DNA of 64,000 bases, taken from NCBI GenBank assembly GCA_020048985.1, contig JAIFLR010000020.1, positions 40,108-104,107 on the forward strand, read 5' to 3'. The DNA is from Halobacteriovorax sp. (GTDB lineage Bacteria; Bdellovibrionota; Bacteriovoracia; Bacteriovoracales; Bacteriovoracaceae). The position numbers and the translations under genes were made by a program. A model generated the notes under the pieces. The model was given only the letters and a program-made list of their open reading frames with translations, had not been told where the DNA came from and ran no database searches. Position 1 is the stretch's first letter. Each line of letters opens with the position of its first letter. Positions 26,907 through 61,252 of the stretch are shown piece by piece.

Positions 26907-26921
26907 GCATATCTAAGGCCA
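26907..26921 (-). promoter_or_regulatory. Possible sigma-54 promoter of csbD
   Basis: On the minus strand TGGCCT-N5-ATGC spans 26921-26907. The invariant GG and GC are twelve bases apart, as required, with A in place of the first T of TTGC. It lies 40 bases before the csbD start. Confidence 0.4.
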
Positions 26922-26943
26922 ATAAATGATGCCTCCACACAGT

Positions 26944-26959
26944 TGGCACGAAGCTTGCT
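26944..26959 (+). promoter_or_regulatory. Sigma-54 promoter of the small exported gene
   Basis: TGGCACGAAGCTTGCT matches the sigma-54 -24/-12 consensus TGGCAC-N5-TTGCW in every fixed position. The start codon at 26993 is 34 bases downstream, behind a GGAGG. Use would require RpoN and an NtrC-type activator, neither encoded in this window. Confidence 0.75.
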
Positions 26960-26992
26960 CCTTACTGATCTGAATTTAAAGCAGGAGGTTAT

Positions 26993-27259
26993 ATGAAAAA
27001 TTGTACACTATTCTTAATTATGACATTACTGATGGCCGGGAATTTAAATGCGTCAGGTGACATGAAAACATCAGAAGAAAACGCTAAACAAAATATGGAA
27101 GAAGCAGTTCAAGATACAAAACGGGGGACTAAGGAAGTCGGTCGTGATGCAAAAGAAGCTGCTTGTCCTATTGTGAATGGGAAGGTCGACTGCGCATTTC
27201 AAAAAGGTAAACACAGCATTGAACGTGGAGCCGATGAAGTAGAAGATGCAATTGACTAG
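26993..27259 (+). CDS. Small exported acidic/basic helical protein (88 aa)
   Basis: The ATG follows a strong AGGAGG. A signal peptide (LFLIMTLLMAGNLNAS) precedes a highly charged helical body with repeated KEVGRDAKEA-type segments and two cysteines (AACPIVNGKVDCAFQ). The composition resembles stress-induced periplasmic helical proteins, but no named family was recognised. The neighbour is divergent csbD, and a near-perfect sigma-54 promoter sits just upstream, so a stress role is the best inference. Confidence 0.75.
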   Translation: MKNCTLFLIMTLLMAGNLNASGDMKTSEENAKQNMEEAVQDTKRGTKEVGRDAKEAACPIVNGKVDCAFQKGKHSIERGADEVEDAID

Positions 27260-27262
27260 CGT

Positions 27263-27284
27263 ACTGAGAAGTTACTCAGTTCTT
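27263..27284. terminator. Short shared hairpin between convergent genes
   Basis: ACTGAG at 27263-27268 pairs with CTCAGT at 27275-27280, followed by TCTTTT. It separates the exported protein from the convergent methyltransferase, whose stop codon lies inside the stem. Confidence 0.45.
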
Positions 27285-28055
27285 TTCTGCATGGATGATG
27301 AACTTATTATAAAAAAGTGGAACACTCTCACTTAAGACTTCATCGATGTACATTTTGAAAAACTGTCTTGAACTAAACTCGCTGCCAAAAAGTTTTATGT
27401 AGAATTCGAGTGAGTTCTCAAATCTTCCTTTCCATTGTTGCGCCTCAAGCTTACGGCCTTCCCCTTGAAAATCCATCACCTCTGTTCTCCAGGTAATATT
27501 GGAAAATCCGACACTTTTTAGTATCGAAGGGATAATACGTGCTACGTTGAGGTCGCCATCAAATGCAGCCTTTACCATTTGCATCCTCTTTAATAATTCC
27601 TTATTTTGAGTTCCTAAATTCAGAAACAGCCCATCCGGATCAATGATACAGACTTTTCCTCCATGGGACAGCGCCTGATAAAAATGGGAAAATGCCTTCA
27701 CTAGCTTCTCCTCATTTAAATGGTGAGCTACTAATCTATTAAAGATAAAGTCGTACTTCTCATCAAAAGGATTATTGACGAAATCTTGTTGGAAAAAAGT
27801 TGTCTGTAGTAATTTTTGATTTTTTTTAGCGTATTCAAGGGACGGTATACTTAAATCGCATCCTGATATTAAGGTTTGAGGATATTTGGATTCAATAAAT
27901 CGGCAAAGGACTCCAGACCCGCAGCCAGCATCGAGGACCTTTGACCCGTTCTTGAGTTGGATATCTTTTAATTCATGATCGAGCGAGAATTGGTCCATTG
28001 TCGTTTGTTCATCCAGTCGTCTCGCTTCATTATTTCCTTGTAAAATATAGCTCAT
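27276..28055 (-). CDS. Class I SAM-dependent methyltransferase
   Basis: Motif I is clear (KVLDAGCGSGVLCRFIE), followed by SGCDLSIPSLEYAK (motif II region), FIFNRLVAHHLNEEKLVKAF (post-II) and GGKVCIIDPDGLFL. This fits methyltransferases of the UbiE/Methyltransf_25 group acting on small molecules. The substrate is unknown. The ATG at 28055 has AAGGTGG five bases upstream and is preferred to the GTG nine bases before it. It is divergent from an acyltransferase-like gene with a 125-base intergenic region and may be functionally linked. Confidence 0.85.
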   Translation of the reverse strand: MSYILQGNNEARRLDEQTTMDQFSLDHELKDIQLKNGSKVLDAGCGSGVLCRFIESKYPQTLISGCDLSIPSLEYAKKNQKLLQTTFFQQDFVNNPFDEKYDFIFNRLVAHHLNEEKLVKAFSHFYQALSHGGKVCIIDPDGLFLNLGTQNKELLKRMQMVKAAFDGDLNVARIIPSILKSVGFSNITWRTEVMDFQGEGRKLEAQQWKGRFENSLEFYIKLFGSEFSSRQFFKMYIDEVLSESVPLFYNKFIIHAEKN

Positions 28056-28180
28056 TTTTACCACCTTGTTGTCCTGTTATCGGTCGGGAGTGCTTGTCAA
28101 TAAAGGTTTTTTTATTTTAATTCTATTGCTTTATATCTTGGCAAATATTCCGATATGAACCTTGCCCAAGGAGGTGCCGG

Positions 28181-28894
28181 ATGACAATTGATAAGTTACT
28201 GCGCGAGAAATACCGTATGGTTTTGATAAGATCCCCTCACGAAATCATGCATGATCATTTCACTAGCGAGCTATTCCCCAAAGTTATAAATCTTAAAACA
28301 ACTGGTTACCAAAAAGAATATGGTGAGTTTGTCTTACCCTTCGATAGTTCCGATTTTGTAGCTTCACACCTATTGCTCACGGAAATTATGACCGATGGGT
28401 CCCTGAGTCCTGTTTTAGGGTTTAAATCTGTGACTTTAAAAAGGTGTGATGATTATAAAATTCCGTTCCCCGTTCTGGGTATGGTGGAGGGCACAACTCC
28501 TAATCCGGAGTATAGAAAAAGTTTTTTGAAAATAATGAACAAATATAGGGAAGAAGGTAGGAGTGATCAATTGGCCTATAACGGATCCTTCACAATACTT
28601 CCACAGCTGAGAGAAAATAAAATACTCATGAAGTCTTTATCGACGACATTTAACGTTCATAAAAAAAAGGCTGAGCTGGGCTGGAATTTCATTGATGGCG
28701 GGAATGGTATTCTTGAGGCCTATAACTGCAAAGTTTTATGCGGATCAAGCTTTATTCCAATGGAGTTAATTGATATTAAAGCAAAAAGCCAGGAGCCCTC
28801 TAGTAAGTTCAAAGATATGTGGGACTCAAAGGTGACCTTAGATCGGGAGTCGATTGAGAAAATTTCAATTGAAAAAATTAAAAAGGCGGCTTGA
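28181..28894 (+). CDS. Unassigned protein resembling N-acyltransferases of the autoinducer-synthase fold
   Basis: A GGAGGT ribosome site five bases upstream supports the ATG at 28181. The 237-residue protein has the order of features seen in GNAT-fold acyl-homoserine-lactone-synthase-like and N-acyl-amino-acid-synthase-like proteins. These are an N-terminal Arg/Tyr helix (LLREKYRMVLIRSPHEIM), a YGEFVLPFDSSDFVASHLLL segment, and a strand with LGFKSVTLKRC. I cannot name a family and the match is only by pattern, so the substrate is unknown. It is not exported. It ends one base from the convergent XRE-type gene. Confidence 0.6.
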   Translation: MTIDKLLREKYRMVLIRSPHEIMHDHFTSELFPKVINLKTTGYQKEYGEFVLPFDSSDFVASHLLLTEIMTDGSLSPVLGFKSVTLKRCDDYKIPFPVLGMVEGTTPNPEYRKSFLKIMNKYREEGRSDQLAYNGSFTILPQLRENKILMKSLSTTFNVHKKKAELGWNFIDGGNGILEAYNCKVLCGSSFIPMELIDIKAKSQEPSSKFKDMWDSKVTLDRESIEKISIEKIKKAA

Positions 28895-28895
28895 A

Positions 28896-29783: not shown

Positions 29784-31394
29784 TTAGACTGCGACTTTTA
29801 TAAAGATTTGATCTTTTTCAATTTTGGTTTCAAATTGATATTGCTGGCCAGTAATGGTGTTCAGGATTTCCTGTAGGGAATCAGTTTTGGTGCCCAAGAA
29901 ATGGCGAAATTCATCAAATGAGAAATGCTCAAGTGCCTCACCCGTCGGACTTATAGAGAAGGTTGAAACTTCATCTTCAGAAACTAATTTTCCGGTAAAT
30001 ACTCTGTGGTAATAAGGTTGGTTATCAAACAGAGACTTGATTAGAGAAAATCTTTTTTGTTTCTTCCCATAATCGTTTTGGAGTATGCCATGGTTCTCTA
30101 GAATGGCGGAATACTTCTTGGAGGACTTGATTAAGTCAAAATTGTTCTTGTTACACCATTTAATTAAATCATTAAGAAAATTAAGCGAGAGTTGAAAGTC
30201 GTACACGTAAAACATCTCCGGAACGACCTTGGCTTCCTTAAGAAATTCTGACCATATCTCTTCACCCAGCTCCGTAATGATACAATGTTTGTATGGAATC
30301 AATTCTCTGATTTTGAGCAGGAAATCTACTCGGTAGCGCATGGGGAGAGTAAAACTAGAATCAGCATGTAGGTGGTTTTTGTATTTTTTCATTCCATCGA
30401 TATAGCCTAGGTCCAGAGTTGCGTGAGCATCAAAACCGGCAAATTGGCAAAAGTTGTACCAGTCACTGGCACTTGGCTCTAAATGCATAGACTCGTATTT
30501 AGAAATCCCACTTTGCGATATTCCTAATGCCTTGGAGAGTTCTTTCTGCGATAAGCCTAAAAGAAGTCTTCCCGCCTTCCAAACCTGAGAGATTTTTTTT
30601 AGCTCTAGTTTTTGATTATTTATCGGACTAAATTGATGGCAAAATTTAATTAGGAGCTGATTAAAATCTACTGCATTTTCGATGTGCATATTGTGTGGCG
30701 AAGGTATTTCTTGAACAGTATTAATGTGTGCTTTTATGAATTCACCATTGATTAACGTGTCATGAGTCCCAATAAGATAAGTTTTTAGTCCCTTGTAGGT
30801 TCTAAGCAGCTCACATTCATCTTGGTATTTTCCTTCGCCAAAACTTTTTGCCATAGATTCTCTGAAGTTACTATCTGTCTTCTGGAGCTCCGAGATGTCT
30901 AAATCTGTAATGATGCGGTTTTTATAAAAAGACTTTATAAGATTTGTCACTTCTTGATATGAGAGATCATTTTTAAACAGAAGTCCGAGGTCTTTGTGAG
31001 GGAGGAACGCATTCATATCCAAAGGTTTTTTTAAAGGAGGTGCTCCAAAAAGAAAAAGCCCCAAGGGGGTTAGCTGACTTAAAGCTTGAACTGCTATATG
31101 TCCACCGAGTGAATGCCCAACCAGAATATATTTATTCACTTTAAGTCTTGCGATTAGATCTTTCAGAACGTTGACGAATAAATTCATGTCATAGTTTGCA
31201 GCAGGTGAAGATAGCCCATGTCCGGGAAGGTCAAAGGCAATCAAACGAAAAACACTTAGTGATTCATCGGCCAGTTGGTGCCTGAAGGTTCTAAGGCTGT
31301 GTGAGTTTCCATGAATGAATATTAGTGCCAACTCAGACGAACTCTGATTATCGAAATAGTTAATTTCAAGACCCTGTGATGGGAATGTTGCCAT
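29784..31394 (-). CDS. Alpha/beta hydrolase fused to XRE helix-turn-helix and sensor-like domain
   Basis: Residues about 1-255 form an alpha/beta hydrolase: the oxyanion motif FIHGNSHS, DLPGHGLSS, the nucleophile elbow GHSLGG (Ser about 95), an acid in GTHDTLI (Asp about 212) and a late His in SPHNMHIEN. Residues about 270-325 are an XRE HTH (LSQKELSKALGISQSGISKYE). The remainder, about 200 residues, is an unassigned domain resembling the C-terminal part of the next gene. All catalytic residues appear present. An enzyme and a DNA-binding domain in one chain suggests a regulator that binds or hydrolyses its own ligand. The ATG at 31394 has AGAGG five bases upstream; an ATG 15 bases earlier lacks one. 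Confidence 0.8.
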   Translation of the reverse strand: MATFPSQGLEINYFDNQSSSELALIFIHGNSHSLRTFRHQLADESLSVFRLIAFDLPGHGLSSPAANYDMNLFVNVLKDLIARLKVNKYILVGHSLGGHIAVQALSQLTPLGLFLFGAPPLKKPLDMNAFLPHKDLGLLFKNDLSYQEVTNLIKSFYKNRIITDLDISELQKTDSNFRESMAKSFGEGKYQDECELLRTYKGLKTYLIGTHDTLINGEFIKAHINTVQEIPSPHNMHIENAVDFNQLLIKFCHQFSPINNQKLELKKISQVWKAGRLLLGLSQKELSKALGISQSGISKYESMHLEPSASDWYNFCQFAGFDAHATLDLGYIDGMKKYKNHLHADSSFTLPMRYRVDFLLKIRELIPYKHCIITELGEEIWSEFLKEAKVVPEMFYVYDFQLSLNFLNDLIKWCNKNNFDLIKSSKKYSAILENHGILQNDYGKKQKRFSLIKSLFDNQPYYHRVFTGKLVSEDEVSTFSISPTGEALEHFSFDEFRHFLGTKTDSLQEILNTITGQQYQFETKIEKDQIFIKVAV

Positions 31395-31437
31395 GCAGAC
31401 CTCTTTCATAAGTTGTTAATTTATAAGATAAAATACG

Positions 31438-31465
31438 ATTATTCAATAATTCGTTTAGGAATAAT
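31438..31465. promoter_or_regulatory. Inverted repeat between divergent regulator and kinase genes
   Basis: ATTATTC at 31438-31444 and GAATAAT at 31459-31465 are perfect inverted copies 14 bases apart, in the AT-rich gap between the hydrolase-HTH gene and the histidine kinase. The size suits an operator for an HTH dimer, possibly autoregulatory. Confidence 0.4.
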
Positions 31466-31531
31466 GTTGATCATTTAAGGCTTCGTTATTACGATGATTT
31501 ATGTTTAAAAATCTTAACAAGGGCAAGTCAA

Positions 31532-32620
31532 TTGAGTGCAGGACGATTAGAATCTATTGTGGCCCATTCTGGCTTAGGTTTTTGGAACTTTAAACGAGAT
31601 CACGATCATTATTTTTCTCCCCAGATATTTACTATCCTAGGCCTTGAATCTGATGAAGCGACCGTGGAGAATTTTGTTTCTAAAATATTCAAAGAAGACT
31701 TGGAAAATTTTCAAGACTCAGCTCTTGGTACATCGATCAATAAATGGACATTGCGTGGGCCAACCCTTCAAGAAACGGTGGAATTTAGAGTTGGTCTTGC
31801 AGGGCAAGTGAGACATGTTCGGTGCTCTGGATCCATAGATTGTGATGGTGATGGCGCTCCATTAAGTGTTTTGGGTTATCTTGAGGACGTAAGTTCAGCT
31901 AAGGAAAGAGAGACGCAAGATTTGTTGCATCTCTCAAAAATGGCTACCCTCGGGGAGATGACTTCGGCTATTGTGCACGAAATAAATAATCCCCTTTCAG
32001 TACTGACAAACTACTCTCTATTTCTGCAAAAAATTTCTCCTTCCAGTCCTGATTTGGAACTTTATAACCGTTGTGTTGAAGGGATATCTAAAAATTCTAA
32101 GAGAATTGCTGAAATCGTTCATTCAGTAAAATTCTTCACTGGTGGTGGCTCTTCACAGTATTTAGAAATTTCGAGTTTAAAGGCCATCTTGAAAGAGACA
32201 TTTATTATTTGCCAGGAAAATATGAAGTGGAAGTCAGTTGCATTTGAATTTATATGTGATGAGGAAATAACATTAGAGTGCAAACCCATTCAGATTTCTC
32301 AAGTTTTAATTAATCTCATTTGTAATTCAGTGATGGCCATCAGTCATTCGGACGAAAAATGGATTAAAATCAACGTCTCCGTAGATAACGATGTCATTAA
32401 GATAGGAGTAATGGATAGTGGTAAAGGTATCTGTGACAGCATCGCCAAATCCATGACAAAGCCATATTTCACCACAAAAAAACGAGAAGATGGCACAGGC
32501 ATTGGATTGACGATATGTAAGGCAATTGCTGAACGACATCATGGCAGACTGTACTATGATGCTACTTCAAAAAATACGCTCTTTGTCCTCGAACTCCCGG
32601 TCAGGCAGCCCCTCAACTAA
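31532..32620 (+). CDS. PAS-domain sensor histidine kinase
   Basis: A soluble 362-residue kinase. Residues about 10-125 form a PAS domain (GFWNFKRDHDHYFS, LGYLEDVSSAKERE). The HisKA helix has the phospho-acceptor His149 in AIVHEINNPLSVL. The HATPase_c domain has an N box (QVLINLICNSVMAI), G1 as DSGKGI and G2 as GTGIGL. The HEINNPL form and the PAS arrangement are typical of NtrB/AtoS-like kinases that often pair with NtrC-type, sigma-54-activating regulators, but no response regulator is adjacent. No membrane segments are seen. The start is TTG at 31532 with AAGGG upstream. Confidence 0.88.
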   Translation: MSAGRLESIVAHSGLGFWNFKRDHDHYFSPQIFTILGLESDEATVENFVSKIFKEDLENFQDSALGTSINKWTLRGPTLQETVEFRVGLAGQVRHVRCSGSIDCDGDGAPLSVLGYLEDVSSAKERETQDLLHLSKMATLGEMTSAIVHEINNPLSVLTNYSLFLQKISPSSPDLELYNRCVEGISKNSKRIAEIVHSVKFFTGGGSSQYLEISSLKAILKETFIICQENMKWKSVAFEFICDEEITLECKPIQISQVLINLICNSVMAISHSDEKWIKINVSVDNDVIKIGVMDSGKGICDSIAKSMTKPYFTTKKREDGTGIGLTICKAIAERHHGRLYYDATSKNTLFVLELPVRQPLN

Positions 32621-33069: not shown

Positions 33070-34119
33070 TTAATCTAAGGCAACCTTATTCTTCTTATTG
33101 TTGGGGTTGTGGATCATAAATTTCATCCCAACACTATTTCCCATAAAGCCAATATTATACTTTTGAGTCCCATCTAGAAAACCATGATCTTGTTTGTAGT
33201 AAGCGAGCTTGTTTTCATAGAACAAACCAAAACGCTCCTTAGGTGTATTGATTTCAACTCGGTTTGTGATGCTTCCACCAAAACCTTGAACACCGTAAGA
33301 GTCTAAATGATCTTCAAACTCCCACCATTGGCCCTCTTTAATCATGACAGTTAAGTTTTCTCCAACCATCACACCAACACCAATGCTTGGGACATAGCTA
33401 ATTGAGCCGAATTTGGTATCAAGTAGTTTGAAGCGGTGTCCGTATCCAATTTCAAATGTCATTTGCTTATGAGTATTTTGGTTGCGAACGAGTTCGCTCT
33501 CCCCTGGAGTCTGATTATATCCATCAAAAGGCTTACTGATCTCCTGGACACCGTCTACAGCGACGCCGTCGATGGTGCCTTTCATGTATTTAACCTGATC
33601 AGTTGCCTGAAGAAATTTAGGATGGAAAGCTGAGATAAAAAATTCATGACCATTTTTTTCAATACTTGCTGTAAATGTATTCGTTGGCTCATCAATGATT
33701 TGAGCAGGATTGTTGCCTTCTTCTTTCCATGTCTCAGGGGTAAAGTATTCACGAGAACCTCTTTCTGCCCACTCGTAATCTTTGATTTCAACGTTGTAGC
33801 GAGTGGAAGAGAATTTTATATCAGTGTTAAAATAAGTCGTAAAAGAATGACTGGCATATAGACGAAATTTCCATTTATCAGTTGGTTTAGGTTCAGGACA
33901 GTCTAATGATTTATTAGGATTGGTGCCTGCCTCAAGTTTAACCACAGATTCTTTAACCTCTGCCTTCATGAATTCAGCACAAAAACCATTATCCACAATG
34001 ATCAAATCTTTTGGAATGTTCTTCCCTTGGCAGATATCTGAAAAGTCTGCTTTCTCTTGGGCCATAGCCGAAAGAGCGGTGAAAGAGATCATTAAAGCAA
34101 AAAGAATGTGTGATTTCAT
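33070..34119 (-). CDS. Predicted outer-membrane protein (349 aa)
   Basis: The start at 34119 (AGGAGTG upstream) encodes a signal peptide ending ALSAMAQ. The mature protein is rich in amphipathic beta strands with aromatic girdle residues (WKFRLYASHSFTTYFNTDI, HRFKLLDTKFGSISYVPSIG, FGLFYENKLAYY), the usual look of a beta barrel. An N-terminal plug-like part has two Cys. No specific porin family was recognised. A sigma-54-type promoter lies 27 bases upstream. Confidence 0.75.
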   Translation of the reverse strand: MKSHILFALMISFTALSAMAQEKADFSDICQGKNIPKDLIIVDNGFCAEFMKAEVKESVVKLEAGTNPNKSLDCPEPKPTDKWKFRLYASHSFTTYFNTDIKFSSTRYNVEIKDYEWAERGSREYFTPETWKEEGNNPAQIIDEPTNTFTASIEKNGHEFFISAFHPKFLQATDQVKYMKGTIDGVAVDGVQEISKPFDGYNQTPGESELVRNQNTHKQMTFEIGYGHRFKLLDTKFGSISYVPSIGVGVMVGENLTVMIKEGQWWEFEDHLDSYGVQGFGGSITNRVEINTPKERFGLFYENKLAYYKQDHGFLDGTQKYNIGFMGNSVGMKFMIHNPNNKKNKVALD

Positions 34120-34145: not shown

Positions 34146-34160
34146 GCAAGGTCAAGGCCA
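34146..34160 (-). promoter_or_regulatory. Sigma-54 promoter of the outer-membrane protein gene
   Basis: On the minus strand TGGCCTTGACCTTGC runs from 34160 to 34146, fitting TGGC-N7-TTGC with exact spacing. The start codon lies 26 bases downstream, giving a leader of about 15 bases with AGGAGTG. Confidence 0.65.
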
Positions 34161-34239
34161 ACTATAGGTTGTTTCAACCCGAAGGAATTGGTTTAGGACT
34201 GTGAAGTTTCTATTCACTATGTCTAAAAAATAGACACTT

Positions 34240-35307
34240 TTAATGGGGAAGGCGCAGATGGAGGGCTTGCTTACTCTGCCCGTTCTGATGGCAGCTATTG
34301 CATGTATAAATATCGAGGTAGGGCCTTGTTTTGAAGTAACCCTCGGTTTCATCTTCACCCTCTATTAAACCTTGGGCAAGGTCTTTTCTTTGGCTCAAGT
34401 GTTTAAGCATATTCCACTTTTTTGCTTTGGATTTGAAGATAAACCAGTCAACTCTTGTGTATAAGGCTTGAGCTTTTCGAGCATAGGCGATTGAAGCCTC
34501 TTTATTGCTCTTGTGTAGTTTCGCTGCCATTTTAAGATAAGAGTCCCCCATGTATACAGTGACACCCTGGTAGGCAAAAGGTGTTTTAGAAGTTGTATTA
34601 CATTTCTTGGCCTCGCCACGTCGGAAAATGAGTTGGGCACAGGGGGATTCCTTGGAATTCATGAAATCTACCATCTCTAGAAGTTTCTTTTCTCGGGCAT
34701 CTCCAAAGTCATAATCTGAAGACATGGTTAGTGCATTGAAGAGGTGAAAGATAGGAGCTCTCACTGTATTTTCTGTAATGAAATCTAGGATTGCCTCATC
34801 AACTTTGCCTTCAATGTAGAGTTGCCGCCTAAGAAGATTGGCCGAATACCAAGCTGGAATGCGGTCATCCTCAGGGGCAGTGGCCATGGCAACTTTGAGA
34901 AACCTTGCGGCCAAATCATAGCGTGCAATAACTTCTTCTCTTAAATTTCCATTTGTGGTTATTTGCCTGTGAGAAGTAATGTCTTCAAGACCAAGTTTTC
35001 CTTCAAGTGCGCCGTTATTATTATTTAAAAGCATCATTGAGGCATAGACCAGATTCATCGCTAGTTTTACGTGGGAAGAATATTTTTTTCCGGGGGCCCT
35101 GTAATCAGGATTCTCCTGCAAAAAGGTCTCAATATAGAGAGCATGATCAATAAGTTTATTTTCAAACGCAAAAATGGATTTGATTTTTTCTTTGGCCTGA
35201 TAATCAAAGAGAGAGAAATACTCGGTGCCGAGAAGGTTTTCTTTTTTGATGTCTTTGGCCCAGTTTAATGTAGGCAAAAGACATAATAGGAGAAAAAGAG
35301 TTTTCAT
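34240..35307 (-). CDS. Exported helical protein with C-terminal CxxCH heme-c motif
   Basis: The signal peptide (TLFLLLCLLPTLNWAKD) supports the ATG at 35307. The 355-residue protein is largely helical and TPR-like (YDLAARFLKVAMATAPEDD, ASIAYARKAQALYTRV). It ends with IYTCNSCHQNGQS, a single CxxCH motif of the kind that binds c-type heme in the periplasm. A cytochrome with one C-terminal heme site on a helical-repeat body is not a family I recognise. The motif could also bind metal. A sigma-54-like promoter overlaps its start region. Confidence 0.7.
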   Translation of the reverse strand: MKTLFLLLCLLPTLNWAKDIKKENLLGTEYFSLFDYQAKEKIKSIFAFENKLIDHALYIETFLQENPDYRAPGKKYSSHVKLAMNLVYASMMLLNNNNGALEGKLGLEDITSHRQITTNGNLREEVIARYDLAARFLKVAMATAPEDDRIPAWYSANLLRRQLYIEGKVDEAILDFITENTVRAPIFHLFNALTMSSDYDFGDAREKKLLEMVDFMNSKESPCAQLIFRRGEAKKCNTTSKTPFAYQGVTVYMGDSYLKMAAKLHKSNKEASIAYARKAQALYTRVDWFIFKSKAKKWNMLKHLSQRKDLAQGLIEGEDETEGYFKTRPYLDIYTCNSCHQNGQSKQALHLRLPH

Positions 35308-35320
35308 GTTTAAAGTAAAA

Positions 35321-35335
35321 GCAAAGCTCATGCCA
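35321..35335 (-). promoter_or_regulatory. Sigma-54-like promoter very close to a start codon
   Basis: TGGCATGAGCTTTGC on the minus strand (35335-35321) has all fixed positions of the -24/-12 pattern. Transcription would begin about 11-12 bases after the GC, near 35310, only a few bases before the ATG at 35307, which implies a nearly leaderless message. Confidence 0.45.
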
Positions 35336-35384
35336 TTAGCGGTCATGAAATACTAGGCAGTTGGAGATTTAAGCTATCAAGGAT

Positions 35385-35915
35385 TTAGACACTAAGAATT
35401 TTCTCATATTCTTTCAGTACGAGGTCACTTACTTTGGGCAAACCGAATTTGGGGTCATTCGCTGGAAAAGCCTCCGTTTTTCCAGTGGGCGTGTACCCTC
35501 GGCGCTCATAAAAAGCTACGAGTTCGGTTCTGGAAGGGATGACGGTGAAACGTATGCGGCTCAGACCGCGGGCCTTGGCAATACTCTCAACATGCTTTAA
35601 AAGAATTTTTCCTAGTCCCTTGCCTTGAAGCTTAGGCTCCACTGTTAGCATCCCAAAGTAGAGTGTATCCGGAGCTTCCTGAATCAGATGCACACTGCCG
35701 ATAAGTTGTTGAGAAATTTCATCAAAAGCCATTTCAATTTGATGATCGGGAGTTTGCATAATATCGCTCAAACTTTCTGCATCAGTGCGCTGCCCACCCA
35801 GAATGCTCGCCTCAGTAGTCCACCCTTGTTCAGCATATTCCCCGCGATAAGCAGAGTTGACTAAATGAGCAAGTTCCTGGGCCTGTAAGAGAGTTGCTGT
35901 TTGAAATCGGATCAT
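35385..35915 (-). CDS. GNAT-family N-acetyltransferase
   Basis: A 176-residue GNAT domain that transfers an acetyl group from acetyl-CoA. The acetyl-CoA-binding motif A is TVEPKLQGKGLGKILLKHVE (QxxGxG), and motif B is RTELVAFYERRGYTPTGKTEAF. The length and the RRGY-x-PTGKTE end match uncharacterised single-domain GNATs. Substrate unknown. Its start lies 45 bases from that of the divergent HAD gene, so they may share a control region. Confidence 0.88.
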   Translation of the reverse strand: MIRFQTATLLQAQELAHLVNSAYRGEYAEQGWTTEASILGGQRTDAESLSDIMQTPDHQIEMAFDEISQQLIGSVHLIQEAPDTLYFGMLTVEPKLQGKGLGKILLKHVESIAKARGLSRIRFTVIPSRTELVAFYERRGYTPTGKTEAFPANDPKFGLPKVSDLVLKEYEKILSV

Positions 35916-46262: not shown

Positions 46263-47279
46263 TTAAACAGTTAATCCAAAGTTATACATGAAGGGGTCAG
46301 CGCCGAAGGTCCCAGGAATCATCGGTTGCGGCATTGAATATCGAGCATCATTCATTGGTTGGTACTGATATTGACCTGACTGGAGGTTCTGTTGGTAACT
46401 TTGTTGCCCCATTTGAGGGCCCATCTGAGAATCCCCACCAATGAAGCTCTGCTGGCCTTGTTGAGCGCCCTGTCCACCCATAATGATGATGGTTGGTGAC
46501 TGATAGTAAGGGTACTGGAATTGAGGATTAACCAGAGATCCCGACATTAACCATCCTGGGATAGCATATTGCTGCTGCTGTTGTTGCGCCTGCATATTTT
46601 GATTCATCTGAACCATCATGTTACTCATGCCTAACATGGTTTCCATGATTTTCTTTTGTTCGGCCAAAAGATCTTCAACTTGCTTAGATAGAACCTTATT
46701 CTTTTCTTCTAAGTCACAAATGAGGTCATCTTTTTTAGGCCCTTCTTCTTCTTTGACCACGATCACTGGTTTTTCTTCGTCTTTTTTAACTGAGTCTTTT
46801 AAGACAGCGAGTTCATTTTCAATTTCGTCCTGAAGAAGGCTCTCTAAAGTTGTTTTAAGTTCTGCCATGGTTTTATCAGCTATCTCTTCGCCTTCAGGTA
46901 CCCATGCTTTCTTTTCTTTTAAGGCAACCATATCAACTTCTAAAGAAACTAGTCCGAGCACTAAGCCTTCAAGTCTTGCTTTTTGGCCGGCGACAGCGTC
47001 TTTTTCAACGACATCAACCTTATAGTCTTTCCTTTCTTGTAAGAGTCTTTCTCGAAGGGCCTCTCCTCTTTCGGAGAAACAATTCAGATCTAAGTCTTTA
47101 TCTATTTCAATTTTTGATCGGTCGATTTTTGAGGCCCGAGCTTCATATTTAGGGTGCGCCGAGATCACTTCAGAGGCTATAGATCTTGAAGCGTGTTTGG
47201 CTTCCATTTGCATAGGTGACATGGTCAAAATTGAGAATAATGGCAATAAGGCCAAAAAATTTGAGTGTGAACGTGACAT
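46263..47279 (-). CDS. Exported coiled-coil protein with Gln-rich prion-like tail (338 aa)
   Basis: An N-terminal signal sequence (NFLALLPLFSILTMSPMQMEA) leads to a charged helical middle (about 60-225) with heptad patterns (LICDLEEKNKVLSKQVEDLLAE). A C-terminal 110-residue tail is rich in Gln, Met, Gly, Asn and Tyr (QNMQAQQQQQQYAIPGW, GAQQGQQSFIGG). Such tails can self-assemble. Related Q-rich exported proteins occur in predatory bacteria, but the function is unknown. It is monocistronic, with its own terminator and a GGGGG ribosome site. Confidence 0.75.
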   Translation of the reverse strand: MSRSHSNFLALLPLFSILTMSPMQMEAKHASRSIASEVISAHPKYEARASKIDRSKIEIDKDLDLNCFSERGEALRERLLQERKDYKVDVVEKDAVAGQKARLEGLVLGLVSLEVDMVALKEKKAWVPEGEEIADKTMAELKTTLESLLQDEIENELAVLKDSVKKDEEKPVIVVKEEEGPKKDDLICDLEEKNKVLSKQVEDLLAEQKKIMETMLGMSNMMVQMNQNMQAQQQQQQYAIPGWLMSGSLVNPQFQYPYYQSPTIIIMGGQGAQQGQQSFIGGDSQMGPQMGQQSYQQNLQSGQYQYQPMNDARYSMPQPMIPGTFGADPFMYNFGLTV

Positions 47280-47502
47280 AAAACCCCCAATAAAAGTAAC
47301 TAATTTTCCTTTTACACTCCAAGATTTATGCCAAGTGGCACAAATTCGTAAATTGCCGCCTAAACACCCTCAGAATCCTTTCATTTCGGGGGGTTATTTT
47401 CTTGCTTCTGGCCTGTTGGATTAATAAACTTAGGGTAGGGAATTCGGCTAATTATTTCACAGTCGACCTATTACTGACTAAACTTTAGACACTAGAGAGA
47501 TT

Positions 47503-55679: not shown

Positions 55680-55829
55680 AATCCACCTCCGGTGAAAAAA
55701 TTCTCTCACTGTTGATGGAGCAAATCTAGCTTCCGATTTTCTCGGTTAAGTTGGGGCAAATCACCACGAGGGATCTATCAATGCACAACGTTCTGCACGT
55801 CATTTTGATGGCTTTATCCAGCGGCCCAT

Positions 55830-55845
55830 TGGCCCTCGCCTTGCT
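55830..55845 (+). promoter_or_regulatory. Sigma-54 promoter of the DUF4383-egtB-egtD operon
   Basis: TGGCCCTCGCCTTGCT matches TGGC-N7-TTGC with exact spacing. The predicted start of transcription is about 25 bases before ATG 55881, whose ribosome site is AAGGAG. Confidence 0.65.
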
Positions 55846-55880
55846 TAAGGTATAGCGCCCTAAGGAACAAGGAGTTGCTT

Positions 55881-56354
55881 ATGCCAATAGTAATGAACCC
55901 ACGCCGCATGCATCATCACGGAAATGTCGATCGAACTGCTGCGCAAAAAGTGTGTATGGGACTTGGTGTCGCATTTATTCTTTTTGGTTTAATTGGAACT
56001 CTTATGCCGGGCCTTCTGGGTATGCACTTGAGTATGTTGCACAATTTTGTGCACATTACCTCGGGTGTAGTGGCCATGTTGTTTGGATTCTCAAGCGCTA
56101 AGGGATCCTTTTTATACTCTCTGTGGGGCGGAACCGTTTATGCCTTCCTTGGCATTGCAGGTTTTATCCTAGGAGCACCAGGCTACCCTGAAGTGGGGAA
56201 TATGGAGGCTGATCAAAATCTATTCCGATTTATTCCGGGTTTTTTAGAATTTGGCACCACGGACCACGCAGTTCATCTATTCGTGGGTATTTTTTTGCTT
56301 CTGACCGCTGACACATTTAGAAAAGAGCGGGCCATAAAAAAAGAGTTGAAATAA
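55881..56354 (+). CDS. DUF4383-like four-helix membrane protein (157 aa)
   Basis: Four hydrophobic segments follow a His/Arg-rich N-terminus. The signature GMHLSMLHNFVHITSGVVAM and the later FIPGFLEFGTTDHAVHLFVG recur in the protein encoded at 61587, so the two are paralogues. DUF4383 proteins are small inner-membrane proteins of unknown function. Several His residues in or near membrane segments could bind metal or heme. The gene's stop is directly followed by the egtB ATG, so it is the first gene of a probable operon. Confidence 0.78.
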   Translation: MPIVMNPRRMHHHGNVDRTAAQKVCMGLGVAFILFGLIGTLMPGLLGMHLSMLHNFVHITSGVVAMLFGFSSAKGSFLYSLWGGTVYAFLGIAGFILGAPGYPEVGNMEADQNLFRFIPGFLEFGTTDHAVHLFVGIFLLLTADTFRKERAIKKELK

Positions 56355-57644
56355 ATGGGAACATCGAGTGTTCAAAACCAGCAGCACATGCAGCTATCAC
56401 ATCTACTGCAAAGGTTTTTGCTGGTGAGAAAGAAAACGGAGGATTTATGTTCACCGTTAGCGGTAGAGGATTTTTCGTTGTCCGGAACCGAGGATACATC
56501 CCCTGCTAAATGGCATTTGGCGCACACAAGTTGGTTTTTTGAAAATTTTGCTTTGAGAAATTACCAACATGCATTTGAAGGATTTCGTCCGGAGTTTAAT
56601 TTTTTATTTAACTCTTATTATAAACAAATCGGAACTTATCTCCCTAAAAACAAACGGGGAATATTAAGTCGCCCGTCGACTGATGAAATTCTTCTTTATC
56701 GACATCATGTGACGAACGAGATTCTAAACTTGGGGCATAAGATCGATCCTGAGGAAGAAGGAAATCTCATTAGGGTTTTGGAAATTGGAATCAATCATGA
56801 GCAGCAACATCAAGAGCTGCTTCTAATGGATATAAAAAGAAGTTTTTATGAAAATCCTTTGCGCCCTCACTATCATTCAGAGGTTTATTCGCGAAGTGAG
56901 GTTGAGCCCAGTGAATGGAGAACGTTTCACTCGGGCCTGGTCAAAATAGGTGTTCCCCTGGAATTTCAGGAGTTTTCATATGATAACGAAAAAGATCAGC
57001 ACCAGGTGTGGATCGAAGATTTTGCGTTGGCATCACATCTTGTAACGAACGATGAGTATATGTGCTTTATGGATGATGGCGGTTATGAAAACCCAAAATA
57101 TTGGCTTTCTGATGGATGGGAGTTCAAAGAAAAAGAAAAATGGGAACATCCGCTCTATTGGGAAAAAAATGGATCAAGATGGTGGACGATGAGCCTCTCA
57201 GGAATGGTGCCACTGGAATTATCTTCACCAGTTGTTCATGTCAGTTTTTATGAGGCGATGGCATTTGCAAAATGGAAGGGGTGCAGGCTGCCGACGGAGG
57301 CTGAGTGGGAGACCGCGGCCAGACTGGAGAGAATAGATGGTGACTTTCTCGAGAATAGCAGTCTGGAGCCAGTTGCAATACCTGATCGATATGAGGTCTT
57401 CTCTCAAATCCATGGCAGTGTTTGGGAATGGACACAAAGTTCCTTTCATCCCTACCCGAGATTTGAGCCAATCCATTTTGGTATGTCTGAATATAATGAG
57501 AAGTTTATGTGTAACCAATTTGTGATGAGAGGGGGAAGTTGCCTGACGCCAAAGGCACACTACCGCCTTACTTACCGTAATTTTTATTACCCTCACCAGA
57601 GATGGATGTACGCGGGAATAAGACTCGCCAAGGATATACTATGA
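56355..57644 (+). CDS. egtB: Ergothioneine biosynthesis sulfoxide synthase EgtB
   Basis: A non-heme iron enzyme that joins trimethylhistidine (hercynine) to a thiol donor using oxygen. The DinB-like N-terminal domain (residues about 15-160) holds the iron-binding His in KWHLAHTSWFFE and NHEQQHQELLL. The C-terminal FGE-sulfatase-type domain (about 200-429) carries the family motif LPTEAEWETAARLE and RGGSCLTPKAHYRL. The gene abuts the DUF4383 gene and overlaps egtD by four bases, so the two enzymes are produced together. Without egtA/egtC here, the thiol donor is unclear. Confidence 0.93.
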   Translation: MGTSSVQNQQHMQLSHLLQRFLLVRKKTEDLCSPLAVEDFSLSGTEDTSPAKWHLAHTSWFFENFALRNYQHAFEGFRPEFNFLFNSYYKQIGTYLPKNKRGILSRPSTDEILLYRHHVTNEILNLGHKIDPEEEGNLIRVLEIGINHEQQHQELLLMDIKRSFYENPLRPHYHSEVYSRSEVEPSEWRTFHSGLVKIGVPLEFQEFSYDNEKDQHQVWIEDFALASHLVTNDEYMCFMDDGGYENPKYWLSDGWEFKEKEKWEHPLYWEKNGSRWWTMSLSGMVPLELSSPVVHVSFYEAMAFAKWKGCRLPTEAEWETAARLERIDGDFLENSSLEPVAIPDRYEVFSQIHGSVWEWTQSSFHPYPRFEPIHFGMSEYNEKFMCNQFVMRGGSCLTPKAHYRLTYRNFYYPHQRWMYAGIRLAKDIL

Positions 57645-58594
57645 TTGAAAATGTGGAGCATGTGGCTGGAACATCCGTATTGAGGGAAGTTCTGGCCGGA
57701 TTATCAAAATGCCAAAAAAGTCTGCCGACCAAGCTGCTCTATGATAAGCGTGGATCAGAAATTTTTGAAAAAATTTGTCTACTCAAAGAATATTATCCTA
57801 CTCGAGCAGAAACAGAGATTTTAAAAACTCACTCGAATGAAATATCAAGTCTTATTGGAAAGGAAGTCATTATTATTGAACCGGGCAGTGGTGCCGGTGA
57901 TAAAATTCGCTACTTACTTCCTCACCTTGTTGATCCGGCCGGGTACGTGCCTATAGAAATTTCAAGGGACATACTGCTTCGGATGACGGAAGAGCTGCAT
58001 GAAGAATTTCCAACTCTTGATGTGATGCCTCTATGTGCAGATTTTAATCAAGAAATTAATTTGCCCCACCAACTGGATACCAAAAATTATAAAAAAGTGG
58101 TTTTTTTTCCCGGTTCAACTATTGGCAACTTTGGCCAGCAAGATGCCGTTAATTTTTTGAAGAAAATTGGACGAATAATAGGTAGTGGTGGTGGATTGGT
58201 CATAGGAGTGGATCTTAAAAAAAATCCTGAACTCTTGAAGAATGCCTATGACGACCCTCACGGAGTGACTGCTGACTTTAACATGAATCTGTTAGAAAGG
58301 CTTAACCGAGAGATATCGGCCAATTTTAACTTGGATAATTTTAAGCATGAGGCATTTTATAACGAAGACCTAGGAAGAGTTGAAATGCACCTGGTGAGTA
58401 AAATCTCTCAGCTAATTAGAGTCAATGAAACGATTTTTCGTTTTAAAGAGGGTGAGTCTATTCATACAGAAAGTTCCTATAAATATAATGTGGATGAGTT
58501 CGCAGAACTTTGCGCCAAAGCAAAGTTTAGTCTCAAATCAACATGGAAAGATAGCCAGAATCTTTTTTGCGTTTTTTATTTTGAATGGGAATAA
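57641..58594 (+). CDS. egtD: L-histidine N-alpha-methyltransferase EgtD
   Basis: Trimethylates L-histidine with SAM to give hercynine, the first step to ergothioneine. The 317-residue protein has the SAM-binding motif IEPGSGAGDKIRYLL, VPIEISRDIL, FFPGSTIGNF (family-specific) and VIGVDLKKNPELLKNAYDD. The ATG at 57641 (AAGGA upstream) gives an ATGA overlap with egtB and is preferred to the in-frame ATG at 57602 inside egtB. Both core ergothioneine genes are thus complete. Confidence 0.94.
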   Translation: MIENVEHVAGTSVLREVLAGLSKCQKSLPTKLLYDKRGSEIFEKICLLKEYYPTRAETEILKTHSNEISSLIGKEVIIIEPGSGAGDKIRYLLPHLVDPAGYVPIEISRDILLRMTEELHEEFPTLDVMPLCADFNQEINLPHQLDTKNYKKVVFFPGSTIGNFGQQDAVNFLKKIGRIIGSGGGLVIGVDLKKNPELLKNAYDDPHGVTADFNMNLLERLNREISANFNLDNFKHEAFYNEDLGRVEMHLVSKISQLIRVNETIFRFKEGESIHTESSYKYNVDEFAELCAKAKFSLKSTWKDSQNLFCVFYFEWE

Positions 58595-58619
58595 TTCCCC
58601 AACACAGAAAGGATTAATC

Positions 58620-58964
58620 ATGAAAAAAGTAATTTTACTCTTGTTGCCTCTCTATGCCTATGGGATGGATTGTCGGATTGATGGATCTTCAGAGACTAGC
58701 GGCCGGATGAACTGCTATATCCATTCGAATATGCAGGTCGAGTTGCTGGACCTTGAGTGCCGAGAGGGGCGATTTCAAATAATTTGGGCAAATAAAGTCT
58801 TTGAAGTCGATCAGGCCTACCAGGACAATCATGAGTCAGGAATGCACTCGCTGGTTTTTCAAGCCCAAGACGCTTCACTCAAGACTACAGAGTACAAATT
58901 GTATCACAAAGCAGAATTTGAAATTGACAACGTTGTATCTGATGGACTCTGTTTCAAAAAATAA
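58620..58964 (+). CDS. Small exported protein (114 aa)
   Basis: The ATG at 58620 (AAAGGA upstream) starts a signal peptide (KVILLLLPLYAYGMDC). The mature chain has four Cys and a beta-rich pattern (NMQVELLDLECREGRFQIIW). It lies 25 bases after egtD and 18 bases before the LysE-type gene, so it is probably in the same operon. No family recognised. Confidence 0.7.
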   Translation: MKKVILLLLPLYAYGMDCRIDGSSETSGRMNCYIHSNMQVELLDLECREGRFQIIWANKVFEVDQAYQDNHESGMHSLVFQAQDASLKTTEYKLYHKAEFEIDNVVSDGLCFKK

Positions 58965-58982
58965 ATACCAGGAGAGGGAGAA

Positions 58983-59687
58983 ATGTGGAGCCTATTTTTG
59001 GAAGGTCTGCTTTTGCAAGCGAGTCTTATTTTCGCCTTAGGAAGTCAAAATATATTTGTTCTCGAATCCGGGCTGAAACAACAAAATCCACTTGCTGTTT
59101 CGTTTGTGTGTTTCTTATGTGATCTGTTTTTGATCTCTCTCGGTGTTGCGGGGGCAGGGGCAGTTTTTTCAGCTTATTCCCAAGTGAAAATAGCGATTGG
59201 AATTGTCAGTGTTATCTTCCTAGTGATCTATGGTGTCTCAAAAATATGCCTTAATAATGAAACCTTTTACTGCCAAAAAAATACTTTAATTGAGTATGGA
59301 ATTAAAAGGAGCGTGTTATTAGCGATAACCTTCAGTATCTTCAACCCCCATGCGTATCTGGATGCATTTGTTTTAATCGGAGGTTATTCAACCAAGTATA
59401 GTGTTTTATTTGATCGACTTACGTTGGGATTGGGGGCAGCTTGCTTCTCTCTGCTTTGGTTTCTTTTTCTGTCCAGTGCATCCACATTAATGAAGCCAAT
59501 TTTTTCCAATGCCAAGAGCCTTAAAATTATTTCGGCCTGCTCAGGGTTGATTTTGTTGTTTTTGTCATACAGACTTGGATCAGATGTTATTAAGTGGATT
59601 GATGAGGGGCCTCATAGCCAGATCCTGGTCAAAGCAGTTTCCTATCCTTTGCACTCGGCCCTAACTTACTCAACCATCATCTATTAA
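58983..59687 (+). CDS. LysE/ArgO-family amino-acid exporter
   Basis: Six hydrophobic helices in 234 residues match the LysE superfamily. The signature near the N-terminus is FALGSQNIFVLESGLKQQ (the consensus has GPQN), followed by VSFVCFLCDLFLISLGV and a central NPHAYLDAFVLIGG, which is diagnostic of the LysE/ArgO branch. It exports basic or other amino acids, or toxic analogues. Last gene of the DUF4383-egtB-egtD run; its position suggests export of a histidine-related or related compound. Confidence 0.88.
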   Translation: MWSLFLEGLLLQASLIFALGSQNIFVLESGLKQQNPLAVSFVCFLCDLFLISLGVAGAGAVFSAYSQVKIAIGIVSVIFLVIYGVSKICLNNETFYCQKNTLIEYGIKRSVLLAITFSIFNPHAYLDAFVLIGGYSTKYSVLFDRLTLGLGAACFSLLWFLFLSSASTLMKPIFSNAKSLKIISACSGLILLFLSYRLGSDVIKWIDEGPHSQILVKAVSYPLHSALTYSTIIY

Positions 59688-59753
59688 ATTAACCGGACCC
59701 AAACATATTTGTAGTGAAACGTGGCGGTTTTTTAATCATCCCGATCTCTTTAA

Positions 59754-59778
59754 GATATTGAGAAACCTTCTCAATATC
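59754..59778. promoter_or_regulatory. Perfect 10-bp inverted repeat before a membrane-protein gene
   Basis: GATATTGAGA at 59754-59763 and TCTCAATATC at 59769-59778 are exact inverted copies five bases apart, ending 14 bases before the start at 59793. The ribosome site AAGGAG follows directly. It could be a dimeric operator or an RNA hairpin controlling translation. Confidence 0.5.
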
Positions 59779-59792
59779 AAAAAGGAGAATTT

Positions 59793-60632
59793 ATGGTTAC
59801 TGCAATATTTAAAAAAGACAGTTCTGACCCTGAAAATCTGGAGACAGAATATCAATCGATGCATCCACTTATAAGTTGGAGATCAGTGGTTGCAGGTCTG
59901 TTGATATCTTTCTTCTTTATGATCGGATTATTAGGACTTGGGATGGTGCTTGGTGGAATTGGCATGAGTGACGGCACTACTGCCAAATCAGCGGGCATCT
60001 TTACGGGTGTTTGGTTTCTTGTCTCTGCCTTGATCTCCCTTTTTGTGGGCAGTTATTTTGCCGCGAGAATTTCTAAGTTTCAGCTCGGCAGGGTCGGTTC
60101 AGCACAGGGACTAGTCATTGCCGCTTTATTCTCTGGTGTTTTTCTTTATGAAACGATTTACACCATTGGTGGTTTAAGTAAATTAACAGGTTCGGTTGTC
60201 GGCAAAACAGTTGATGCCGTTGGCACAGGCGTGGCCACAATAGGTAATAGTGCAGTCATGAATGATTTAGTGAACGAGGCAATGGGCGACTTAACACTCA
60301 AAGATAATCCTCAAACTGTAGCTACTGGTATTGTGGGTAGATTACTAAGAGGGGATGGAGTGGGAGCGAAAAACTATCTCGCTGGTGAAGCAGGGATTTC
60401 AGTGGAAGAGGCTGACCAGAGAATCGCCGGAGCAAAAGTTAAACTAGATGAGGCCCTGGTTAAAACCCGTGTTGGAGCAGCAGCAGCGCTGAAATCCGCC
60501 GGGTGGGCATTGTTCTCATTAGTCTTTCTAGGATCGATATTTGCAGTCTTAGGAGGGCTTCTTGGTTCGGTGACAAATTACAGAAAGCCACTGGCAACTA
60601 GGGAGTTCTTTTCCCGGGAACAACATGCATAG
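59793..60632 (+). CDS. Inner-membrane protein of unknown function (279 aa)
   Basis: The N-terminal half has three or four membrane helices (VVAGLLISFFFMIGLLGLG, GVWFLVSALISLFVG, GLVIAALFSGVFLYE). A soluble middle segment (residues about 120-240) of amphipathic helices follows, then a last helix (LFSLVFLGSIFAVLGGLLG). The pattern resembles small membrane proteins often seen next to stress genes, but I cannot name the family. The gene has AAGGAG upstream and a terminator after it, so it is a single transcription unit. Confidence 0.7.
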   Translation: MVTAIFKKDSSDPENLETEYQSMHPLISWRSVVAGLLISFFFMIGLLGLGMVLGGIGMSDGTTAKSAGIFTGVWFLVSALISLFVGSYFAARISKFQLGRVGSAQGLVIAALFSGVFLYETIYTIGGLSKLTGSVVGKTVDAVGTGVATIGNSAVMNDLVNEAMGDLTLKDNPQTVATGIVGRLLRGDGVGAKNYLAGEAGISVEEADQRIAGAKVKLDEALVKTRVGAAAALKSAGWALFSLVFLGSIFAVLGGLLGSVTNYRKPLATREFFSREQHA

Positions 60633-60644
60633 AATGTGCTCTTG

Positions 60645-60674
60645 GGTTGGGGACTTAGGTCCTCAACCTTTTTT
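60645..60674. terminator. Terminator shared by convergent genes
   Basis: GGTTGGGGAC at 60645-60654 pairs with GTCCTCAACC at 60659-60668 (one G-T pair) around TTAG, followed by six T. The convergent gene's stop codon falls in the T run. Confidence 0.8.
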
Positions 60675-61092
60675 ACAGTAAATTTAGGTTTTCCATTTTA
60701 ATCGTTTTGGCACCAAAGCGGTCTGAAAATTGAATCGCAAGTTCCTTGATGTTCTGATCAGCACCATAGACCTCTATGTACATATCAAAAATTTTTCGTT
60801 TGGCCCTCAATTCAATTTTTCCGTCATTATATTTCCATTTACCAGTTCCCGAACCTAAATTTGGTAAATTATAGAAAAAACGATTTTCCTGGTAGAGTGC
60901 TATTTCGATTGGATAATCGTTATTAATGAATGCCTTATCAACAGTTAGATTTGGACTAGTGGGAATCTTTTTGGCATTTATAAACTTCTCAAATTCTTGC
61001 GGCGCTTGAGCCGAGTAGAGGTCAGCACTAGCACTCCTACCCGTACATGCAGATATTGCGAGCAAAACGATTACGAGTACAATGCATCTCAT
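60673..61092 (-). CDS. Small lipoprotein (139 aa)
   Basis: The ATG at 61092 is preferred over an upstream TTG. It begins a signal peptide with lipobox (VLLAISACTG). The mature chain has beta strands with aromatic residues (FFYNLPNLGSGTGKWKYNDG). No family recognised. No strong ribosome site is visible. It lies opposite the 59793 gene and shares its terminator. Confidence 0.7.
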   Translation of the reverse strand: MRCIVLVIVLLAISACTGRSASADLYSAQAPQEFEKFINAKKIPTSPNLTVDKAFINNDYPIEIALYQENRFFYNLPNLGSGTGKWKYNDGKIELRAKRKIFDMYIEVYGADQNIKELAIQFSDRFGAKTIKMENLNLL

Positions 61093-61236
61093 TACGATTA
61101 CCAAGGTTTAGTTTATTAAATGATAATAGGCTTATAAGGGCTTGGTCATCATAAATTAGTCAGATATTTAAGAAAAAATGCCCCCCTACATTATCCTTAA
61201 CGTCCCATAACCTTTTAATTATGCAGCTTGTTCAAG

Positions 61237-61252
61237 TGGCAGGGGTTTTGCT
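61237..61252 (+). promoter_or_regulatory. Sigma-54 promoter of the 73-aa gene/DUF4383 run
   Basis: TGGCAGGGGTTTTGCT fits the -24/-12 pattern with exact spacing; the invariant GG and GC are at 61238-61239 and 61250-61251. The start codon at 61289 with AAGGAGG is 37 bases downstream. Confidence 0.65.

Follow-up and report, generated by a model that had tools for sequence, protein, structure and literature searches.

We examined a 64,000-nucleotide (nt) window from the genome of Halobacteriovorax sp. (contig JAIFLR010000020.1, positions 40,108 to 104,107), in which a sequence-only reading had proposed six sigma-54 promoters, five with the exact motif TGGC-N7-TTGC (26944, 34146, 35321, 55830 and 61237) and one with a single mismatch (26907). 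Positions below are window coordinates unless a locus identifier (L with a number) is given. We consider it probable, at roughly 0.85, that all six are sigma-54 promoters from a set of about fifty noncoding sites which stand mostly before genes for exported proteins, and that the mRNA made from 35321 would be leaderless. The traits of sigma-54 promoters found here are a -24/-12 element with fixed spacing, rpoN along with genes for enhancer-binding proteins in the same genome, and an oriented placement upstream of genes above chance. What appears to be new, judged from the DNA itself, is a palindrome that may serve an activator and a predicted leaderless class of sigma-54-dependent genes, neither of which the sequence-only reading had noticed.

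The genome (3.25 Mb in 138 contigs) encodes rpoN, the product of which is 93-94% identical to its nearest four named records, all from metagenome-assembled genomes labelled Bacteriovoracaceae or Bacteriovorax stolpii. Membership in the Bacteriovoracaceae suggests a predatory way of life. Promoters of the -24/-12 type need an activator and ATP hydrolysis, and the sigma-54 activator domain has 15 matches in the genome, about 11 of them strong.

Placement of the predicted sigma-54 sites in the window and the genome

A pattern scan of the window found the five exact sites and the one-mismatch site at the positions and on the strands that had been claimed, together with a sixth exact match at 3890. 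The claim that the sites all lie in intergenic gaps held for the five that were named; the match at 3890-3904 is coding and had been overlooked by a reading which admitted to a non-exhaustive scan of coding regions. The expectation of about two chance matches per 64 kb agreed with shuffled windows, which average 2.28, and three of 100 such windows reached at least six exact matches. Given this average, the number of sites is only mildly unusual and is weak evidence when taken alone. As to placement, five of the six exact matches in the window are noncoding, compared with 8 of 89 copies carrying a wrong spacer (binomial 3e-5).

Throughout the genome the motif occurs 119 times, and the same half-sites occur 56 times with an N6 and 169 times with an N8 spacer. 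Because 119 lies between the two control counts, the raw number is uninformative and only location counts; raw counts as proof of promoters were dropped, since N8 spacers outnumber N7. Coding phase probably dominates the raw spacer counts, and counting the reversed pattern gives a misleading control here. Of the 119 sites, 112 were examined together with their surroundings (seven were left out), with genes called by a small codon-based caller, and 51 of the 112 proved noncoding against 3 of 30 N6 and 5 of 59 N8 copies, i.e. 8 of 89 controls (Fisher 8e-9). The site at 35321, at first counted as coding because the caller took an upstream ATG, was moved by hand, giving 52 noncoding and 60 coding sites. 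By our own gene calls about 8% of the window is noncoding, and the density of sites in noncoding DNA is about ten times that in coding DNA. An equal frequency of the motif inside genes had been named as the outcome that would speak against sigma-54, and the noncoding excess, found despite so small a noncoding share of the window, favours it. Along with rpoN and the activator genes, this placement supports the sigma-54 promoter set well.

A scoring matrix built from 47 noncoding sites, all outside the window, gave its top four scores in the window to 34146 and 55830 (20.9 each), 35321 (19.8) and 26944 (17.7). Among relatives, exact sites also stand before a 73% identical orthologue of the gene behind 34146 and before the tandem paralogue of this orthologue (L261, gaps of 25 and 27 nt). 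For the family of the gene starting at 26993, behind the site 26944, exact sites were found before two of 13 other homologous loci (L282 and L285, one of them in another family), TGGT variants at L275 and L276, and a weaker candidate about 250 base pairs (bp) upstream, before the preceding gene, at four other loci. Homologues of csbD carry TTGG[CT]-N7-[AG]TGC 37-40 nt upstream in four of the five loci fetched, the fifth locus ending 44 bp upstream, and on this ground 26907 was rescued as a conserved variant. No footprints for 55830 and 61237 were found among the loci fetched for other comparisons. Sigma-54 control of the five exact sites appears likely, with the strongest case for 34146 and 26944 and the weakest for 61237; for 26907 it is conservation that suggests a sigma-54 site.

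The upstream palindrome and the predicted leaderless class

A dyad search upstream of the sites yielded TGTC-N9-GACA, which emerged as the top de novo dyad for 15 of 20 random halves and was extended to AGTGTCTAA-N3-TTAGACACT. At a score of at least 10 and within 110 bp, the palindrome was present upstream of 20 of the 52 noncoding N7 sites, on which its matrix had been trained, and of none of the 60 coding N7, 30 N6 and 59 N8 copies. Its positions relative to TGGC cluster near -58, -66, -77, -88 and -97, a phasing of about 10 bp with a Rayleigh p of 2e-4 in this genome (n=21) and of 7.5e-6 in same-genus relatives (n=19, partly orthologues). With zero or one mismatch it was found at 16 places, seven of them beside exact sigma-54 sites and four beside near-consensus ones including 47319. 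In other genera of the family it occurs at 11 of 22 loci where the motif ends 12 or 13 nt before the start codon (gap 12/13), seven of these scoring 16-24, at positions -49 to -88. We regard the palindrome as a likely enhancer site of a sigma-54 activator. Two of the five exact promoters of the window have a predicted copy, and a search upstream of 26944, 55830 and 61237 found none.

As a second enhancer motif common to the palindrome-negative promoters, the best dyad was AATC-N8-GATT in 4 of 28, which was not accepted because its copy upstream of 26944 appears to lie within csbD. A tie between the palindrome and an activator through nearby matches was also rejected, as the 15 activator loci held three matches scoring at least 11 (L033, L040) where about 2.4 were expected. 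At L040 (2071-2091) a match scoring 13.1 precedes the start of an activator gene by 28 bp, a possible autoregulation near the chance level. NCBIfam naming was tried for 10 activators, none of which had a hit above the cut-off among the matches listed. Elsewhere a sigma-54 site and the gene of a 115-amino-acid (aa) protein without a Pfam family come immediately after an activator gene (L039 / L015; G000:C13:53000-54500). Two divergent sigma-54 sites in L162 (1501-1644) flank a single palindrome (1572-1592); relative to a leaderless-type aminotransferase gene it sits at -77, and relative to a sulfatase-like gene at -58.

Sigma-54 transcription is expected to begin about 12 nt after the GC element, which agrees with the 8-13 nt reported for C. 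jejuni (PMC3847290). In this genome gaps of 12-14 nt with little or no Shine-Dalgarno (SD) sequence occur at L021, L135, L154, L155, L159 and L162, with a GTG case in L163. For the genus we searched TGGC-N7-TTGC-N{4,34}-ATGAAA, a pattern of which ATG is itself a part, and 150 matches were listed from 22 of 24 same-genus genomes including this one, which contributes four of those at gap 12/13; a few sites are entered twice owing to two ATGs. Among the matches listed the distance to ATG is bimodal (13 at gap 12, 24 at gap 13, 6 at 17-22 and 87 at 23-34), and SD-like sequence precedes 2 of 37 starts at gap 12-13 compared with 60 of 87 at gap 23-34. An AUG start without SD is found at the other 35 of the 37 and at the window gene 34240-35307. 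A signal peptide begins at the start codon in 28 of 33 gap-12/13 genes outside this genome, and in 25 of 30 loci taken one per genome, a set that includes one locus from this genome, one that repeats the 33-gene set and four from another family. In a test of 154 genomes of the phylum (TTGCT and ATGAA), 111 matches stood at gap 12-13 and 36 at gap 17-18, divided as 50 against 8 in the Bacteriovoracaceae (38 genomes) and 61 against 28 elsewhere (116 genomes).

The 14 orthologues of a transglycosylase (58-97% identical) all have gaps of 12-13 with fourteen different gap sequences. Some families hold both forms, with gaps of 12-13 in three relatives and of 23-24 in two others including the copy of this genome, and thus genes seem to move between the leaderless and the leadered state with the promoter kept. 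A parallel leaderless class of sigma-70 type was also observed in the own-genome loci L001-L163: of 111 genes that lack SD, 18 carry TANNNT at a distance of precisely 12 nt upstream of ATG, compared with one of 182 genes that have SD. The gap-12/13 genes, which recur across the family, are predicted to give leaderless mRNAs, mostly for signal-peptide proteins. A strict link between leaderless genes and the palindrome was looked for and not found. In L149 and several same-genus matches (G001, G020 and others) a recurring leader with GGCACAGGGG follows the sigma-54 site shortly before ATGAAA; the L149 gene, from this genome, encodes a protein with an N-terminal anchor.

In the window the predicted leaderless site is 35321. 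It falls inside the open reading frame (ORF) if the start is taken at ATG 35346; the signal peptide starts at ATG 35307, and this start aligns with most homologues of the 34240-35307 protein. The gene caller runs the gene (34240-35346) through its own sigma-54 site, reading it as NGMSFA. The N-terminal extension of one homologue, P0128, starts MNGTAFA, and back-translation allows for a sigma-54 site translated as part of the gene. Promoters of this kind may lead start-codon prediction astray.

Exported targets and the genes of the window

A start codon was assigned for 42 sites; 11 of the 52 noncoding sites had no assignable start and are absent from the export count, which takes in one site (L023) that overlaps a neighbouring gene. 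By one crude hydropathy test, which overlooks a number of clear signal peptides and lets through some proteins that are not exported, 28 of the 42 curated targets have an N-terminal signal peptide or anchor compared with 162 of 470 other genes (p = 8e-5). The earlier proposal that the targets are exported or envelope proteins is well supported by this comparison. A Pfam scan covered 30 of the 37 target proteins outside the window. Many matched no family, and those that did are mainly secreted hydrolases. The families recovered comprise two PLD-like phospholipases, a patatin, a subtilase, a trypsin, a lytic transglycosylase and a sulfatase-like enzyme, besides an aminotransferase, BON, DJ-1/PfpI and one flagellar rod protein. 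With phospholipases, proteases and a lytic transglycosylase among its targets, the set is likely to furnish a predator's secretome. Of the redox-stress theme that had been proposed, the presence of csbD and of EgtB-like and EgtD genes was borne out; the theme as such remains weak, resting on csbD and one likely operon.

The features of the window are compiled in Table 1. The DUF4383, egtB-like and egtD genes likely form one operon. The 349-aa protein behind 34146 shows weak matches to outer-membrane barrels, e.g. OmpT and OmpA; a specific function from its fold was sought and only a generic barrel emerged (31 homologues chosen for the alignment out of 120 listed). No orthologue of the 34240-35307 protein was found in 57 relatives or in the genome-contig collection searched. 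Apart from these, one 3996-aa ORF occupies 1875-13865 on the minus strand, and 29784-32620 encodes an alpha/beta-hydrolase fused to a helix-turn-helix domain, adjoining a divergent histidine kinase.

Table 1. Predicted sigma-54 sites, putative enhancer palindromes and associated genes in the window
Feature	Position	Strand	Remarks
Predicted sigma-54 -24/-12 site TGGCACG-N4-TTGC	26944..26958	+	exact; 34 nt before ATG 26993
Variant sigma-54 site TGGC-N7-ATGC before csbD (candidate)	26907..26921	-	one mismatch; 40 nt before ATG
Predicted sigma-54 site	34146..34160	-	exact; 26 nt before ATG 34119
Predicted sigma-54 site, predicted leaderless promoter	35321..35335	-	exact; TTGC ends 13 nt before ATG 35307; no SD
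Predicted sigma-54 site before likely DUF4383-egtB-egtD operon	55830..55844	+	exact match; 36 nt from motif end to likely ATG, 30 nt to a TTG
Predicted sigma-54 site, weakest of the five	61237..61251	+	exact; 37 nt before ATG 61289
Near-consensus site TGGC-N7-TTGG, additional to the sequence-only reading	47319..47333	-	one mismatch; 39 nt before ATG 47279; found via upstream palindrome
Exact motif within 3996-aa ORF, likely chance match	3890..3904	+	not among matrix matches scoring at least 9
Predicted enhancer palindrome for 34146	34218..34238	.	score 20.9; 78 nt upstream of TGGC; weaker second copy at -58
Half-conserved predicted enhancer palindrome for 35321	35373..35393	.	score 15.9; at -58
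Strongest predicted palindrome in window	47473..47493	.	score 23.8; 160 nt upstream of 47333 TGGC
88-aa exported protein, no Pfam family, SD-led	26993..27259	+	12 of 57 further genomes searched have a homologue
CsbD-like protein, 82 aa	26618..26866	-	Pfam CsbD 1.2e-13; divergent from 26993 gene
349-aa exported protein, predicted outer-membrane beta-barrel	33070..34119	-	signal peptide; AlphaFold2 predicted local distance difference test (pLDDT) 81, mostly strands
355-aa exported protein, invariant CxxCH near C-terminus	34240..35307	-	26 of 29 homologues aligned
DUF4383-like membrane protein	55881..56354	+	Pfam 2.8e-8
EgtB-like protein	56355..57644	+	FGE-sulfatase domain; weak DinB_2 match below Pfam cut-off
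EgtD-like histidine-specific methyltransferase	57602..58594 (start 57602 or 57641)	+	Pfam Methyltransf_33 3.4e-106
73-aa small protein, SD-led	61289..61510	+	3 homologues besides itself
Membrane protein, 32% identical paralogue of DUF4383 protein at 55881	61587..62084	+	after 73-aa gene
338-aa protein, likely signal peptide	46263..47279	-	behind near-consensus site 47319

Proposed mechanism, alternatives and known systems

In the mechanism that we propose, RpoN-RNA polymerase would bind the -24/-12 element and an NtrC-type activator would bind AGTGTCTAA-N3-TTAGACACT on one face of the DNA about 60-90 bp upstream and would open some 40% of the promoters, 34146 and 35321 among them. With a start about 12 nt after GC, a gap of 12-13 nt would give an AUG-initial mRNA read without SD, and one of at least about 21 nt an ordinary leader. 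A second activator would serve 26944/26907, 55830 and 61237, which implies at least two groups of activators. Several observations weigh against the sites being such promoters with such geometry. The raw N7 count sits between those of the controls; 61237 scores 12.6, sixth in the window and below one coding match at 13.6, and has no palindrome; and 26907 at 10.3 is, apart from its conservation, within the noise of coding matches (9-14). Close upstream of 9 of the 13 other 26993-type loci there is no site or a doubtful one. For the palindrome, the phasing p is only 0.0085 over 14 distinct own positions and, at 10 bp, falls short of significance in the family's other genera (p = 0.06), and with up to two mismatches it is about as common genome-wide as its reversed control (30 against 27 places). 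Five of 33 and five of 30 gap-12/13 matches lack a signal peptide, some of them being chance matches; the leaderless state and the palindrome do not strictly coincide (5 of 9 own leaderless sites at a score of at least 10); and the sites of relatives include orthologues and are not all independent.

That the matches represent a chance eight-base pattern, with the intergenic placement a product of selection by the reader, accords with the shuffled windows that reach six and with a genome-wide count below the N8 control, but is highly improbable in view of the noncoding location, the independent matrix, the footprints before orthologues and the upstream palindrome. A single sigma-54 regulon for envelope and redox stress, as originally proposed, would account for the stress-type genes csbD, the likely DUF4383-egtB-egtD operon and a neighbouring Usp-family gene; it appears quite unlikely, as the palindrome, common to 34146 and 35321, splits the window sites into two groups, the genome has about 11 activator genes, and secreted hydrolases predominate among the genome-wide targets with a Pfam family (30 of 37 scanned).

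The palindrome might instead belong to an ordinary repressor or one-component regulator and not to a sigma-54 activator, which fits the lack of any activator gene tied to it and its near-chance occurrence in activator loci. We hold this to be unlikely, since among the sites tested it occurs only upstream of noncoding N7 copies, mostly at -57 to -97, and is helically phased in the genus. It is also conceivable, if somewhat unlikely, that the promoters are real but that transcripts of the gap-12/13 genes carry a short leader or these genes start elsewhere. Published sigma-54 starts do scatter, the motif lying 8-13 nt upstream of the transcription start in Campylobacter jejuni (PMC3847290), which leaves room for leaders of 0-5 nt. 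The gap peak, however, spans no more than 2 nt, nearly all of these starts (35/37) have no SD, signal peptides mostly begin at them, and this genome has the parallel -10-box leaderless class; these points argue for leaderless mRNAs.

For the Bacteriovoracaceae as a whole we advance, with the odds about evenly balanced, the proposal that one enhancer-binding protein reading AGTGTCTAA-N3-TTAGACACT drives a sigma-54 predation secretome, in which activator-gated transcription of many genes starts at the AUG itself and directly gives SD-independent mRNAs for exported proteins, and genes switch between leaderless and SD-led forms with the promoter kept. If true, sigma-54 would control a large part of the exported proteins of a likely predatory family, and a sigma-54 promoter joined in fixed geometry to leaderless translation would constitute a new promoter class. 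Start-codon calls would be corrected, as gene prediction can run on through the promoter of such genes. The DNA element and the roughly 11 activators would also provide candidates for what switches on the secreted hydrolases of predators. Searches of the literature on sigma-54 with leaderless genes, and on Bdellovibrio or Bacteriovorax with leaderless, rpoN or sigma-54, showed, among the papers listed, no title or abstract opening that describes such a class.

For leaderless genes in Deinococcus-Thermus (PMC12340547) a promoter element, the -10 box, likewise lies at a fixed distance from ATG; that element is of sigma-70 type, in contrast to the -24/-12 element here, and the leaderless genes described for C. 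jejuni also carry sigma-70 promoters (PMC3847290). Leaderless starts have been reported for S. meliloti (171; PMC3616915), B. japonicum (320, with the motif TGnTA; PMC4842269) and L. interrogans (about 440; PMC5243855), in each case beside mapped or predicted RpoN sites as in our genome. Unlike here, the main-text passages of these papers tie no leaderless start to an RpoN promoter, and their supplementary tables may hold overlaps. The QseF/GlrR regulon (PMC6075780) resembles the palindrome-bearing set in its sigma-54 activator, its three upstream sites TGTN12ACA and its envelope-homeostasis promoters, but our palindrome, TGT-N11-ACA, has a spacer of 11 and not 12, and no GlrR orthologue was found among 10 activators scanned (of 11 strong), the best reaching 371 bits against a cut-off of 763.

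In Francke et al. 2011 (PMC3162934) the best-matching sigma-54 sites lie 0-200 nt upstream of starts and exported or envelope molecules are the common theme, and both the upstream placement and the exterior theme recur in this genome. Their theme covers precursors, exopolysaccharides, lipopolysaccharides, lipoproteins and flagella, whereas here it is mainly secreted hydrolases and exported proteins of unknown function; the words Bdellovibrio and leaderless are absent from its main text. In the attack phase of B. bacteriovorus (Karunker et al. 2013, PMC3627812) the sigma factor is FliA and not sigma-54, and growth-phase promoters were not mapped in that work. Its likeness to the system proposed here lies in a global alternative-sigma programme that governs surface proteins and proteases in a predator.

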